Source of the DNA: Maylandia zebra
Lineage: Eukaryota > Chordata > Actinopteri > Cichliformes > Cichlidae
Assembly (NCBI RefSeq): GCF_041146795.1
Contig: NC_135167.1
Coordinates: forward strand, 9,739,954-9,803,953
Direction: 5' to 3'
DNA: 64,000 nucleotides
Below the pieces are notes generated by a model, which was not told the origin of the DNA, did not search any database, and saw nothing but the letters and a program-made list of their open reading frames with translations. The translations under genes were made by a program, and so were the position numbers. Below are positions 10,247-64,000 of this stretch, in pieces. The first letter of the stretch is position 1, and each line of letters starts with the position of its first letter.

Positions 10247-11442
10247 ATATGGTGCAAAAGTCTTGAGGCACCTTATTTCTTAATAGTTTGCTTCCAATGA
10301 GCCAAATGTTCTATATACTTTTCAAAATGGTCTCAAAAATAGTAATAAAAGTCCAGTCCCTGTACCTGACACATAACACCATTTGAGAAACATAAAAAAG
10401 TATTTTTGCACCTGCTATTACCCTGAAATCTAGAATATATGGCGTATAATATGGAACCAGCTGTCTGTTTTATCTTTTCCTCTCCCAATATGCACCATGA
10501 CCAATGTGACATTTGCAAATCCATTTCTGGACCTCCAGTAGAGCCTATGTTTTTTCCTAGTGTGGACTAGTTACATCCAAATTGCATTTGTCTAGAACGA
10601 CGACCCAGAAAAACCAAGGTGCTGCTAAGGCATGCCATCAAGTACGGCAACCTTGTCTCAAATATCCCACTTTGTCTAAGTATCAGCCGGGCAGGAGGTT
10701 TAGCTGTGCACCTACTAAAGCTACGAAATCTAGCACATCTGGTGTGTAATATGCCCAATAAAAAGTGTAAAACAAAGGAAGTGGCAGAAGGGTAGGATAG
10801 AATAGTATCTGAAAGCCATTGTTTTACGAAATAGAAAAAATCCAGCAAAGACCTGACACAGGACATGAAAGGTGCATCGGACCCAATACTCACAGAAGGG
10901 TCTCAGTGTAAAGTTGCTGTCAAGAAGCCAGAGAAACAGTTAGAAAAGGCTGATGTATTATAGGTGCCAAATTACACAAAAACTGGACAATAAATTAGTG
11001 GCAACATGTCTAATGTAGTGATGAATCCAATTTTGAGATTTTTGGTTCAGATCTTCATCAATACATACAAAGGAGGTCAGTAGAGAGGTACAACAGTAAG
11101 TGCTACAGTCATTTCTAAAATCTGGTGAAGGCTCTATGAAATAATGAACTATAAATTATAATATGAACACAGATTTTGACCCACCAAGGGAGATAAAAAA
11201 GAAGAGCTTTAGAATGTCCTTCAAGAAGCCTGGTGAGCTATTTCTGAACACTACTTAAAGAAATTACAAGAAAATTGGCCTAAAAGAGTTCAGGCTGTGT
11301 TAAAGAATAAAAGTGATCCAATGCGTTATATACTGCATTTCCATGTCTGTCCACACATGTTCCAAAAAACGCTGCACCTGTTTTCCATTTTCCTACCAAA
11401 ATATAAAGAAATGAGGGTTGGCTCAAGAATTTGTACACTAAC
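10247..11442 (+). mobile_element. Degenerate Tc1/mariner-like transposon
   Basis: The left end (gtgcaaaagtcttgaggcac) recurs as a diverged inverted copy at the right end (ggctcaagaatttgtacac), the Tc1-type ends common in teleosts. Inside, plus-strand remnants of a transposase are visible: RRPRKTKVLLRHAIKYGNLV near 10,600 and DESNFEIFGSD near 11,030, where the DE pair is the second-catalytic-Asp region. Stops and frameshifts make it inactive. Confidence 0.7.
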
Positions 11443-11889
11443 ATATACTAGATTCAGAATGTAGATGTACTGTACGTGTGATATTGATATTGTTTATGCT
11501 GTGTATATTCCTCTATTCCACTTTTATAGAAACAACTCCATAGGTTAATTCTTACTTTGTTGTCTGTCTTACTGTGGTTCTTTATATTACCACAGCTTCT
11601 TGGCTATGAAGGGAAATACTTGAGATGGGGGTTTTTTTTCAGTGTGGAGTGAACCCAAAGAGAAACCCTACAAATGACACAGCCGCAGCCTCAGCAGATC
11701 TCTGGCCAATGGATACAATCTGTGACGCGCAGAGCTTTTGCTGGTGTAATGTGCAAACATTACTGTTTGAGCTGATCTGGCTTTAGCCTGCACTAGTCTC
11801 TCTGCCTCTCCAAACTTGGAGAGCAGCACCCAAAGCTGTGTGCAGTTACACGTCTCTAATCCTGTAATTACTGGCCCATCAGCGCCTAG
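11443..11889. other. Spacer between Tc1-like copies
   Basis: No gene. 11,640-11,890 is relatively GC-rich and may be further repeat sequence, but I cannot assign it. Confidence 0.4.
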
Positions 11890-12153
11890 TAAAACCATAA
11901 TTGGAACCAGCTGTCTATTTGTTTTGTCTTTTCCTCTCCCAGTATGCACCATGACCAATCTGACATTTCTAAATGCATCTCTGGACCTCCAGTAGAGCCT
12001 ATGTTTTTACCAAGTGTGGACCAGTTAGGTCCAAATTGCATTTGTCTAGAACGGCAAGCCAGAAAAAAGAAGGTGCTGCTAAGGCATGCCATCAAGTACA
12101 GCAACCTTGTCTCAAATATCCCACGATTCCACTAAGTACCACCAAGGCAGGAG

Positions 12154-32086: not shown

Positions 32087-32287
32087 CTAGACCTGGTCCT
32101 GGTTCATTCTTGTAATGCGATCATTGAACACATTTCTCAGTCGTCTCTGCCAGGCTGACTGCCCATCCAAACGAAGCCTCTTGGCTGAGGATCCATCTCC
32201 TTCCTCATCTCTATCCAGTGATACCGCGTAGCATCGCATGTTTGGTGACCTGCCCGTTTTGATCATGTTGTTGATCTCACGCAGAAG
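32087..32287 (-). CDS. Pocket-protein terminal exon
   Basis: 66 codons and a TAG stop at 32087-32089. LLREINNMIKTGRSPN and AKRLRLDGQSAWQRRLRNVF match the p130 C-terminus (LREINSMIRTG, AKRICPENHSALLRRLQDV). It extends a few residues past the usual end. No poly(A) signal is obvious close by. Confidence 0.9.
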   Translation of the reverse strand, partial: LLREINNMIKTGRSPNMRCYAVSLDRDEEGDGSSAKRLRLDGQSAWQRRLRNVFNDRITRMNQDQV

Positions 32288-35200
32288 CTGTGAACAAAAG
32301 GAAAATAATATTCTACTGTGTGCGAGCAAAGTCAACCATTTTTATTCACTAAATCATTTCCAAAATAGGAATGTAAAATGTATTCAGCCTAGATTGTACC
32401 CCAACACACAAAATTTTTTAAGACGATCATGTGAAAACAAAAACACTATATCCACACACCTCTGGAGGACTTGAGTTGAAGTAGTAGCAGAGCCCAGTTC
32501 TGTGAGGGGAAGGGGTTTCTGTGTTGTATGGTGAAATGGAGATGGACGGGCTGTTGGACAGCTGATAACAGCGAGGAGATGCTTTCCACTGTCGAGGGTA
32601 TGGAGACAAAGGAGGGGTGTCTCGCTGGACAAGAAATGAAGTGTAAGCATTACATGGAAAATAAACATTTCCCATTTTTACTGAGTTCTTAGTTTTGTGA
32701 CGTCAGCTCAGAAAAAAGAAAAAATGTTCACTTACTAATGAGGTTTGAGCAAACTGTTTGGCAAAATGCTGCATCTTTGTCGTGTAGACCTGGTTGTAAA
32801 AATGGATGAGATTGCCCCGTTCCTCCTGCCCAGGTCTTGGATAATGTGTTGATGGTGTGTTGGGGGTTAGGATAGTGCTGCTGTGCTTTCCGGTATCTAT
32901 AATCAACAATATAATAAAAAGTTACTTATCACTGTGGAATTACTCTGGGATAATGGATATAATGCAGGTAAAATGTTGTAAGTGAATCATTTGGTAACTT
33001 GATGGGTGTCATTTTTCTTGTGCAATGAGGCATTGCTATGAGTTCTACCTCTGTATAGTACTTTATTTGGATCTAACACAACACATGCTGCATTCGTTTT
33101 CTTTAACTCTACCACCACCAGTGCCACTGTTTCCGAGCCACATAGCCAGCTAACAATACATGCGCATTTCTTTGCCCACAGTGGATTGCAAGCATGTGAG
33201 CATGCATTACACATATAAAGCTACGATGGCAGTGAGGGCAATGTGTAGTCCCATTTTCAATACTTATTGGGACGCATTATGTACATTACTGTAATTACAA
33301 GGCTATTTTGTAAGTGTGTTTTTTAAAACAGGTGTTCCATAATATTTAAAATATATGACTTTTTTATTTAAAAGCTTTCTTACTGATTTTTTTAATGGTA
33401 GAATTTTCCTCCATCCTTTCTGAAATCAGCACGTTTTTGCAGACCTGCAGATAGAAACGGTAAATGCTGAAACAAGTGCTTTGAGTTGTTACTGTCAACC
33501 TGCTAACCTCCTTGCAAGACTGAAATGCTCATGTAAAGCAGGTATAATGATATTGTCACAGTTATTTAAAAAATGTACCTGTTAACATTAAAACATTTGA
33601 TGATAAACACAAAACAGAATGTCGCTAAAACTGATGGAATCTTGGAATAAGTGGGCCCAGCTGATACACGTTTCAACCTGTATCGCTATATTTTGTTAAT
33701 TCACAGCTGTATACTAAAGACAGCAAAAAATAAAAACCAAAATAAAAGAAACTTACACTTTTGTTGGCACGTGGCTGTGACTTGTAGCATTTCATTATCT
33801 GTTTGAAGGGTATCTCCATCTTGGTAATCTGTAAAGGCAAATGCCACCACTTAACTGCTGAGTATGTGTTTTCCAATGAAGTCCATGCATTACCAACATG
33901 GATTCTTTTTAGGATTACAAATACAGTTTTCCTTTAATTTCATGTCAGTGAAAAGCGATAAAAACTTTTTCAGCTGTCAAGTGCCCTCACAACAGTCTTT
34001 AATTTTATTTAAACACCAAGTAGTTCTTTTCCATAAAACTGTAAATCTGTAAACCTCCCTGAAGGTTTTACTTCTCCGTGGTCAGGGTGGACTCAATTTG
34101 GGGCAGGTGTCCAACATCAGAGGTCTAAGAAGTCTGGCCATTCTGATTTACTGTGGCTTTGATTTACTGCACCGTCTCTCTGTTTGCTGTTCTCCCTACC
34201 TACATCTTGCTGGTACTGCATTAGTCATCATCTGCAAAATGCTGGTATATCTTAGCCCACCCTGAACATTTAAATGTATTCCTCACTCCCTAAGAATTGT
34301 TTAAAGTTTATTATTCATCTTCTCTGAGACAACCACTTGCATTTTCCAGTTGCATTGTCTTGCATTATTTTAGCAGATTCTGGTGGGTTTTAATAGTATC
34401 TTTTAAAACCCACCTTTGCTATGATGTAGATAGCACACATGAGCAGTTGGTCCAGGTGACGGTCTTCCATTAGACAAGAGCAGTGGACCAAGGAATACTC
34501 AAAGCAGGTCCAGATCTTTAATCGCAGCTCATCAGATATTTCCAGCGTGGAACACAGCTCCCTCAGACGCTTGGCCATCAAGCTGTAAACCTGAGATAAA
34601 GACAGACATGACCACACTAAACATGCCATATAACAACAATGGCAACTGGACGCATGATATAGAACTGACCTTCCGAGCAAACAGATGGAGGGAGCTGCAT
34701 CTCTCTTGTCTGTTTATAGCTGATGGGGAACACTGCTGCTCTGTCCTGGCTGAGTGGTTCATCCCCAAACTGACATCTACTGGCAAAAATAGTTTACCAC
34801 TCAATCTATAGTAATAGTGTAAACAGTTTGCAGGGAATGGTTTTATTTAAAATGAGTCTTTAGTGCACTGTGTTAATACCTCTCGGCACACCTGGATCCG
34901 TTTGCATTGGACCTTCAAGCCTATTTGGATGCATTACCTACATTTGACACAAGGCAAAACTCTCATTAAAACCCGAACTGCTCAAAGAAAAATTTAATTG
35001 CTTTGGATATGTTATAAAATTTCCAAATATTGATCATTTATGATGTCAGGCAAAGAGTATTTGTGTTATTCCAAACCTGCTGGCAGGTGGGCATATGGCC
35101 CTCGTTGGGTGTGATTTCATCCCACAGTGGTGAGTCGCTGATCCAAGCCAAGTTCTCCAAAACCTTTTCTTCCACTTGGATGAGGTGTGTGACCACATAG

Positions 35201-36637
35201 TGAGGCAAGCCTGACCCAACCCGCCAAACAGGCTCAATCACCTGTGAGAACAAAGAAAAACAAAAGAGGGAGCATTCAAATCACAGACTAAATGTTACTG
35301 TATCACTAAGTGTACAGTATATGGCAAAAACAAAGTACCTTCCAAAAGTGGTATGGTTCCAGTTTGAGGATCTGAAGGAGCAGCGGGAAGTCACATGGTA
35401 AGCTGTTTGAGGTTACAGCGATCTCCAAGCAACAGGCCACCAGACAGCGCTGGAAAAGATCATGCTCCAAGATGCCCTGCATCAAACACACCTGTTTTAC
35501 ATGCATTACAAGCACCAGCTGCTTTACTTCAAAGATGACTCAAAATAAATAAAATACATAAGTTATGAGATCACAGGTGCTGTGAGACATTTATCTGTGA
35601 CTGCTCAGTTAATATGGTCAAAGCTCAGTTCCATCTTTGGCCACCAGATGGCGTGCACTTACTGAGATGTCACTGAAGCCCAGCCTTTTCCTCTCTTGAC
35701 TGATCAGGCTCTCCAAGATTCTGTGATACCAAACCCCTGCCTCGTAGCAGCACTTTGCTGCCAACTCTGTGAACAATATTAGATAGATTATTTTTTGGCA
35801 CGTATCAACAACCCGGGCTTTATTCCAGAATTTCACACCTGCTATCAAAAGACAGCCTGCTCTCTAATCATAAGAATTTCGGCTATCAACCAGATACACG
35901 CTGAAGGCCACATTCCACTGTAAAATCATCACTGTACCTTTGGTCTTCTCATTTCCCTCGTCATCCCTGTAATGCTGTAGAAACATTTGCAGCATGCATT
36001 TCAGTCTTGTTTCAATCGCCTCAGTCGAATCTCTGGAGCAAGCCCTGAATCCAAGGCATCGTCACAGAAATTTGAGCAGCACAAAAGGAAATGGAAAATG
36101 TAATTCAACAATATTCTGCCATTGGCATAAAGTGGAGGTGTAAGTTCTAAACTGTAAATGAAATGCCACACGTGTGTTTTTTAAAGCTCTTGCTTACAAC
36201 AGTAGAAACTATATTAAAGAATTCCCAGTACAGAAACTTTATCAGCTCTGTGTGCTTACACATTATTGATCTTGACCACACCCTCAGTGCCTTTTAGCAA
36301 AACACCAGATGTTAACTACACTATGTAGCTGTTAAATTGATCTAGCCACATTTGTACAGTGTGTGAGGCAGACTGATGAAAGATCTGAGGCGCGTTGTGC
36401 TTTATTGCAGCTATTAGTGCTGCGAGTATCAGTATCAGGTTGACATACACACAGCCTACACAGATAAACACTGTGTGAGTCAGTAATGCTTTGTAACTGC
36501 AGGGCTAACCTCAACATTGCGATCAGACAGTCACTAGGGCCAAACCTTGGCTTTCCCACAATCCCCTGTGGCACAGTTGCCATGGTGACCTCCTCACTCA
36601 CACAGGATGAGAGTCAGAGCAGGAATCAAATGGACAC
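32087..36637 (-). CDS. Pocket-only RBL2/p130-like protein (13 exons)
   Basis: Retinoblastoma-family pocket protein; relatives bind E2F/DP and LxCxE partners and repress cell-cycle genes. Exons: 36510-36637 (ATG at 36583), 35938-36044, 35663-35766, 35339-35476, 35077-35241, 34880-34937, 34670-34779, 34414-34590, 33757-33828, 33384-33444, 32736-32896, 32460-32624, 32087-32287. All borders are GT-AG and phases agree throughout, giving 530 residues. Pocket A (about residues 10-200), a short spacer (about 200-252), pocket B (about 253-408) and a C-terminal region follow the p130 order. CSRDSTEAI, LREINNMIKTG and CYYFNSSP resemble p130 more than p107. The p130 N-terminal domain (about 400 residues) is absent: I found no N-terminal exon between here and chd9, and two in-frame TGA codons precede the CACCATGG start. 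It is therefore a truncated paralog, a shortened gene, or less likely a gene with missed distant exons. No coding lesion is seen, so I do not call it a pseudogene. Confidence 0.82.
32460..32624 (-). CDS. Pocket-protein exon 12 (C-terminal region)
   Basis: 55 codons. RDTPPLSPYP, SISISPYNTETPSPHR and CYYFNSSPPE parallel APPLSPYP, VYISPHK and YYFSNSPSK. Several SP/TP sites are possible CDK targets. Confidence 0.87.
32736..32896 (-). CDS. Pocket-protein exon 11 (LxCxE cleft)
   Basis: EERGNLIHFYNQVYTTKMQH matches EERGDLIQFYNNIYIKQIKT of p130. The Tyr-Asn pair that contacts LxCxE peptides in pRb (Y756-N757) is retained. Confidence 0.9.
33384..33444 (-). CDS. Pocket-protein exon 10 (pocket B, micro-exon)
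   Basis: 61-base exon encoding VCKNVLISERMEENSTIKKI, corresponding to VYRSVLIKG of p130. It supplies the one extra base needed to keep exon 11 in frame, which supports it despite weak identity. Confidence 0.7.
33757..33828 (-). CDS. Pocket-protein exon 9 (pocket B)
   Basis: 24 codons, ITKMEIPFKQIMKCYKSQPR plus ANKS, matching VTKEDKSFQNIMRCYRTQPQ of p130. Donor AGT|gtaagt. Confidence 0.9.
34414..34590 (-). CDS. Pocket-protein exon 8 (pocket B)
   Basis: 59 codons. VYSLMAKRLRELCSTLEISD, LRLKIWTCFEYSLVHC and DRHLDQLLMCAIYIIAK: the most conserved pocket B segment of RBL1/RBL2. Confidence 0.94.
34670..34779 (-). CDS. Pocket-protein exon 7 (end of spacer)
   Basis: Ends INRQERCSSLHLFARK, matching NRPRKTSSLSLFFRK immediately before pocket B of p130. 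The acceptor is ttgccag|TA; an upstream tatag would break the frame. No RRLF-type cyclin-binding motif is present. Confidence 0.72.
34880..34937 (-). CDS. Pocket-protein exon 6 (start of spacer)
   Basis: VMHPNRLEGPMQTDPGVPR resembles VMPPQNLERADE of p130 at the same exon boundary. Two donors fit the phase: gtatta (exon start 34880) or gtgtgc (34892). Short, so support is mainly phase and position. Confidence 0.6.
35077..35241 (-). CDS. Pocket-protein exon 5 (end of pocket A)
   Basis: 55 codons. HYVVTHLIQVEEKVLENLAW and MPTCQQ match VVKHLNQIEEQILDHLAW and VPTCEE of p130. Confidence 0.9.
35339..35476 (-). CDS. Pocket-protein exon 4 (pocket A)
   Basis: 46 codons. GILEHDLFQRCLVACCLEI is the conserved pocket A helix (HRSLLACCLE in p107/p130), and LEPYHFWK matches PLYHFYK. 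Confidence 0.9.
35641..35653 (+). promoter_or_regulatory. CTCF-like motif (perfect core), forward
   Basis: CCACCAGATGGCG matches the CTCF core consensus fully. It sits 10 bases inside the intron after pocket-protein exon 3 and points away from the reverse sites at 27.6 kb. Confidence 0.5.
35663..35766 (-). CDS. Pocket-protein exon 3 (pocket A)
   Basis: Contains WYHRILESLISQERKRLGFS, matching YYKVLESVIEQEQKRLGDMD of p130. The donor is TCA|gtaagt; a CTCF-like motif lies just inside the following intron. Confidence 0.88.
35938..36044 (-). CDS. Pocket-protein exon 2 (pocket A)
   Basis: ACSRDSTEAIETRLKCMLQM aligns with TCSRDPTQAIANRLKEMFEI of p130. Acceptor gattcag|G, donor G|gtacag, phase 1. 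Confidence 0.85.
36510..36637 (-). CDS. Pocket-protein exon 1: 5' UTR and start codon
   Basis: Acceptor atgtttag after a pyrimidine tract ends at 36638, so a 5' UTR exon should exist upstream. From the acceptor the frame contains two TGA codons before ATG (36583) in the context gtcaccATGG. Coding part: MATVPQGIVGKPRFGPSDCL then IAML, with a split R codon at the donor. GPSD...IAMLR aligns with the start of pocket A (APSEKLEQILR in p130). The residues before GPSD resemble nothing I know. Confidence 0.65.

Positions 36638-40149: not shown

Positions 40150-40194
<45 letters not shown>
40150..40194. repeat. (CA)n microsatellite
   Basis: About 45 bases of uninterrupted CA/AC. Confidence 0.95.

Positions 40195-40196
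<2 letters not shown>

Positions 40197-43238: not shown

Positions 43239-64000
<20,762 letters not shown>

Follow-up and report, generated by a model that had tools for sequence, protein, structure and literature searches.

The closest described systems are the canonical p130 protein RBL2, its relatives RBL1 (p107) and RB1, and the fragments engineered from this family. In the extracts of PMC3325851 that we used, the 'large pocket' is enough to bind E2F and to suppress growth, and laboratory fragments of this kind, consisting of the small pocket and the C-terminus, are described as the minimal growth-suppressing part. The same extracts assign the inhibition of cyclin-dependent kinases (CDKs) by p107 and p130 to two elements, a site in the spacer, which binds, and an N-terminal region, which inhibits (PMC3325851). 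Here we describe a short gene on the minus strand of a 64-kb stretch of the Maylandia zebra genome (contig NC_135167.1, positions 9,739,954 to 9,803,953; the window). We consider it rather probable from the sequence that it is a second euteleost RBL2 gene for the large pocket only, whose product would act as a repressor or adaptor separated from kinase inhibition.

The short protein shares with canonical RBL2 the RB_A and RB_B domains, the LxCxE cleft, the C-terminal region and its descent. It differs in the absence of the N-terminal domain PF11934 and of the cyclin-binding RRLF motif, in a spacer of 47 residues instead of about 180 and in a B insert of 37 instead of about 67. RB1 has an N-terminal domain of its own; its large pocket is 34% identical to the short protein in the aligned part, and the short gene is not RB1 by the tree. 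In comparison with the pocket construct of RBL1 (PDB 7smd, 4yoo, 4yos, 4yoz), the product of the short gene is natural, is of RBL2 descent and has its own C-terminal region. Likewise, the laboratory large pockets are engineered, whereas the fish version is a conserved gene.

The coding sequence, rebuilt by script from the minus strand, is split over 13 exons (36583..32087; 1593 nt, 530 residues), in agreement with the thirteen phase-consistent exons and about 530 residues of an earlier note on this DNA. It spans 4497 bp of the genome, of which 2904 bp are intron, and all 12 introns are GT-AG with consistent phases; with 12 introns, a retrocopy is ruled out. Pfam finds the cyclin folds of pocket A (RB_A, residues 14-183, E 4.3e-49) and pocket B (RB_B, residues 245-398, E 2.5e-50), and no N-terminal family at E<=1, PF11934 (DUF3452) not being among the matches. 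A weak MOM1-like match (E 0.028), under its own cut-off, overlaps RB_B. The layout is that of a large pocket, in which pockets A and B are separated by a spacer, short in percomorphs, and followed by the C-terminal region. The protein begins at the pocket boundary. Its start codon lies in the strong context GTCACCATGG, with the nearest in-frame stop, a TGA at 36616, 11 codons on the 5' side, so that the start at pocket A read earlier, in a good Kozak context behind an in-frame stop, stands. Position 36637, given earlier as the 5' end of exon 1, follows an AG acceptor-like site, and hence exon 1 would carry 54 nt of presumed 5' untranslated region (UTR).

The earlier note had reported no N-terminal exon between the short gene and chd9. 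We searched the whole 64 kb by tblastn with seven full-length RBL2 proteins and with their N-terminal parts, two of which (the cuts of P0244 and P0253) extended into the pocket. No N-terminal exon was detected: matches to an N-terminal part reached E 0.17 at best, while for the pocket exons, as joined pieces, the same search gave values as low as 1.5e-42. The window contains no N. Thus, neither of the two things that the earlier note had named as speaking against a pocket-only gene, upstream exons for the N-terminal domain or an assembly gap, was found in it.

Relatives were collected with the 530-residue query (best 120 of 214 matches), a salmonid short query (best 120 of 790) and a full-length RBL2 query (best 120 of 1487), together 297 distinct proteins, which were sorted into a short and a full class according to their BLAST scores against reference proteins of either kind. 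Among these matches listed, to which the counts below refer, at least 119 are short and at least 178 full. The short class covers at least 92 named species, and 13 further proteins come from contigs assembled from the Sequence Read Archive (SRA). The comparison with other teleosts that had been proposed earlier shows a gene common to salmonids, esociforms (pikes), Centroberyx and percomorphs; short proteins from otocephalans, elopomorphs, osteoglossomorphs, killifishes or cods are absent from the matches listed. The start is shared as well: the first Met lies within 25 residues of the window's start in 102 of the 119 short-class proteins, 15 begin later (fragments or other predictions) and two earlier. 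Of these two, P0040 is a prediction that joins chd9-like sequence and the short gene, and P0127 carries 27 residues that do not resemble RBL2. Pfam finds the N-terminal domain in none of the 119.

One close relative, P0001, has the same start and differs at 11 of the 530 residues (98% identity). Its source is a contig of 37 member sequences and 2319 bp, assembled from the SRA, which is shorter than the 4497-bp gene and therefore must be spliced. Judging from this contig, the short gene is transcribed, in a close relative at least. Apart from differences in splice prediction, a single Arg/Lys exchange separates the Astatotilapia proteins P0002 and P0003 from that of the window.

Conservation of the parts of the protein was counted in an alignment of 112 short and 159 full proteins. 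The RRLF motif is present in none of the 112 short proteins and in 153 of the 159 full ones, and percomorph short proteins lack most of the spacer. At the positions that we take to be Cys706, Tyr709, Lys713, Phe721, Tyr756 and Asn757 of the RB LxCxE cleft, the window protein keeps all six residues, and Val714 is replaced by Ile. The equivalents of Tyr709, Lys713, Phe721, Tyr756 and Asn757 are kept in 97 to 104 of the 112 short proteins, and the cleft columns are conserved above the pocket mean in the short clade. Hence, the pocket and the Tyr-Asn pair described earlier are indeed retained, by Pfam and by alignment; invariant pocket residues exist across 85 aligned proteins. Four of the eight checked positions that presumably form the E2F groove at the A/B interface are 0.91 to 0.97 conserved, and the rest 0.45 to 0.81. 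The predicted C-terminal E2F/DP-binding helix is recognisable by a match to 5tuv_C (E 7.8e-4), and in conservation its 21-residue window belongs to the best three of the 107 windows of the C-terminal region.

The tree agrees with the p130-like identity proposed earlier. In a tree of 54 rows the short clade (support 100/100) is nested in teleost RBL2, and it stays there when one p107 and one RB row are included (teleost node 98/98), which rules out an origin from RBL1. In its sister node the full-length RBL2 of otocephalans is united with that of euteleosts; the support is 98/93 on 54 rows and 98/95 on 38 rows, from which the fastest rows were removed. Because of this place in the tree we favour, as not proven, an age of the short copy equal to that of the teleost genome duplication. 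We suggest that one RBL2 copy, probably arising in that duplication, shed its 5' exons before the salmonid-percomorph split, and that translation would now begin in the first exon left. The start codon could be a former internal Met of ancestral RBL2, which is only a suggestion: gar has PVSMATQSV where the salmonid short protein starts with MATQ, and of the 168 full-class proteins (among 178) that have the motif, 30 carry a Met at this position.

The full-length copy persists beside the short one. Full-length cichlid RBL2 among the matches listed comprises P0244, P0253, P0291 and P0293, and PF11934 is confirmed in P0253. Short and full proteins could be paired by name in 31 species, and the window was paired with Simochromis. 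For 26 of the 32 pairs a contig is recorded with both members, and the two contigs are unequal in length in 26 of 26, which means that the short and the full copy do not lie close together. This evidence is good but imperfect, as the contig entry refers to a 90% cluster and short scaffolds are among the contigs.

The same gene might instead have been duplicated later, within euteleosts, which we regard as doubtful. When the short clade is forced together with euteleost RBL2, the approximately unbiased (AU) test gives a tree worse by 6.9 log-likelihood units on 54 rows (p 0.109) and by 7.9 on 38 rows (p 0.055); a duplication within euteleosts is thus not rejected, which counts against our dating, and the salmonid search returned no otocephalan or basal-teleost short copy among its best 120 of 790 matches. 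Against the later date stand the supported node that joins otocephalan and euteleost full-length RBL2 to the exclusion of the short clade and the unequal contigs, some short scaffolds among them, which do not suggest near neighbours.

As to function, the spacer RRLF and the N-terminus are both gone while the docking surfaces are largely kept, and the simplest reading is thus a pocket adaptor or repressor without CDK capture. The short protein would dock LxCxE-type partners (LIN52/MuvB, repressors linked to histone deacetylase) via the pocket and E2F4/5-DP via the pocket and the C-terminus. It would do so without the parts that enable p130 to capture cyclin A/E-CDK2 and to inhibit it, and the full-length p130 of the same fish would retain the kinase-inhibitor function. 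It is quite possible, although we propose it more tentatively, that euteleosts thereby divided p130 into a full-length repressor and CDK inhibitor and a CDK-blind pocket form that still docks partners but can neither bind nor inhibit CDK2, kept since before the salmonid-percomorph split.

Several observations weigh against this proposal. Extracts of PMC3325851 state that p130 without the spacer is still able to suppress growth, so that the loss of cyclin binding may change little. A looser RxL-type pattern is still present in 6 of the 112 short spacers. The mean conservation of the E2F groove, as a purely descriptive value, is 0.79, and groove sites that are invariant in full-length RBL2 drift in the short clade: at the Lys548 site 71 of the 112 short proteins have R, 14 have T and 13 have K, and at the Glu533 site 72 of the 112 have E and the window protein has Gly. 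The median pocket p-distance is 0.369 for the short proteins vs 0.135 for full-length RBL2 in the same columns (median ratio 2.49; 496 comparisons, 32 species), and very divergent short proteins occur in Takifugu, Periophthalmus and Melanotaenia. By these measures the short gene is constrained, yet faster-evolving than full-length RBL2.

The main rival to an adaptor or repressor would be a decoy, a dominant competitor that takes LxCxE/LIN52 or E2F partners and weakens the complexes of full-length p130 and p107. The well-conserved cleft, the partial drift of the groove and the absent CDK-inhibitor parts would all suit such a role; however, the sequence of the C-terminal E2F/DP helix is among the best kept of its region, and the large pocket is described as growth suppressing in the extracts of PMC3325851, and we hold a decoy to be rather unlikely. 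It is improbable that the short gene is a duplicate under relaxed constraint, heading for loss without an important role: the 2.5-fold greater divergence, the long branches in several lineages and the lack of killifish, cod, otocephalan or basal-teleost short proteins among the 297 matches listed would fit, but at least 119 proteins from salmonids to percomorphs, the residues invariant over 85 aligned proteins and the cleft columns, whose conservation exceeds the pocket average, argue for constraint. Real N-terminal exons that were overlooked or dropped through assembly error are hardly credible, although the DNA is of one genome only, given the gap-free window, its lack of an N-terminal tblastn match, the in-frame stop shortly upstream and the short-class relatives without the domain, which together rule out a local artefact.

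If the short protein is a pocket adaptor or repressor, evolution has kept, beside an intact p130, nearly the same fragment as the engineered ones with which RB-family function has so far been dissected, and has discarded the CDK-inhibitor machinery in both its halves. Living fish would thereby offer a natural experiment on the role of the pocket alone and on the importance of p130 CDK inhibition in vivo, which is called elusive in extracts of PMC3325851. A pocket-only vertebrate RBL2 is not described in the titles or abstract openings that our searches of an open-licence library listed, consistent with the earlier statement that no such gene was known. The present analysis extends the earlier note in three respects: the wider distribution in fish, the loss of RRLF together with that of the percomorph spacer, and the naming of the short proteins in public records, which is automatically 'retinoblastoma-like protein 2'. 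With two RBL2 genes in fish, 'rbl2' expression or knockout data may refer to either of two quite different proteins. In the parts of PMC3224931 consulted, no RBL2 is reported to have been found in Tetraodon, and a short paralog is not mentioned. According to extracts of PMC6237963, which gives five transcript accessions, 11-ketotestosterone increases brain rbl2 of tilapia 1.464-fold; either RBL2 gene may be meant.

Table 1. Features of the short RBL2 gene and its upstream neighbour (positions in the window)
Feature	Position	Strand	Basis or remark
Coding exon 1, MATVPQGIVGKPRFGPSDCLIAML	36510..36583	-	start codon at 36583
Presumed 5' UTR of exon 1	36584..36637	-	AG acceptor-like site before; in-frame TGA 36616
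Exon 2, pocket A	35938..36044	-	gene model
Exon 3, pocket A	35663..35766	-	gene model
Exon 4, pocket A	35339..35476	-	gene model
Exon 5, pocket A end	35077..35241	-	gene model; Pfam RB_A stops at residue 183
Exon 6, shortened spacer	34880..34937	-	gene model; spacer 47 residues, without RRLF
Exon 7, shortened spacer and pocket B start	34670..34779	-	gene model
Exon 8, pocket B, cleft equivalents of RB Cys706, Tyr709, Lys713	34414..34590	-	gene model, alignment
Exon 9, pocket B, cleft Phe721	33757..33828	-	gene model, alignment
Exon 10, pocket B, shortened B insert begins	33384..33444	-	gene model, alignment
Exon 11, B insert and HFYNQVY (cleft Tyr756, Asn757)	32736..32896	-	gene model, alignment
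Exon 12, C-terminal region, S/T-P sites	32460..32624	-	gene model
Exon 13, C-terminal helix LLREINNMIKTG like p107 peptide of PDB 5tuv, then stop	32087..32287	-	E 7.8e-4
chd9 3' exons, upstream neighbour, same strand	43239..49710	-	positions of open reading frame pieces, not of exon borders

Public predictions of the short gene are often faulty: P0002 and P0003 of Astatotilapia read into introns or omit an exon, and P0040 of Scortum joins the short gene to chd9-like sequence. Two labels among the full-length RBL2 records also deserve a remark. For P0293 one source gives Oreochromis niloticus and another gives Mustela putorius furo, which points to a labelling error in the record. P0268 and P0270, labelled Lepidogalaxias, group with Merluccius on a long stem (100/100), which is unexpected for the salamanderfish; mislabelling or contamination is possible.

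Around the short gene, no AATAAA or ATTAAA occurs in the 1200 nt 3' of its stop codon, and no 500-base window in 30-64 kb combines an observed/expected CpG ratio >0.6 with a GC content >0.5, as a CpG island would. The upstream neighbour chd9 is recognised by a Pfam HTH_CHD6-9 match in 49360-49710, and the frame 43239-44324 resembles the chd9 part of the fused Scortum prediction P0040, which suggests that chd9 adjoins the short gene in Scortum also. A (GT)n microsatellite lies between the two genes at about 40150-40195. In 1-31 kb of the window three open reading frames were scanned, without a Pfam match at E 0.001. Minus-strand segments 10567-10902 and 11886-12131 encode the near-identical peptides FETRLPYLMACLSSTLVFLGRRSRQMQFG and FETRLLYLMACLSSTFFFLACRSRQMQFG and are probably copies of one repeat element.
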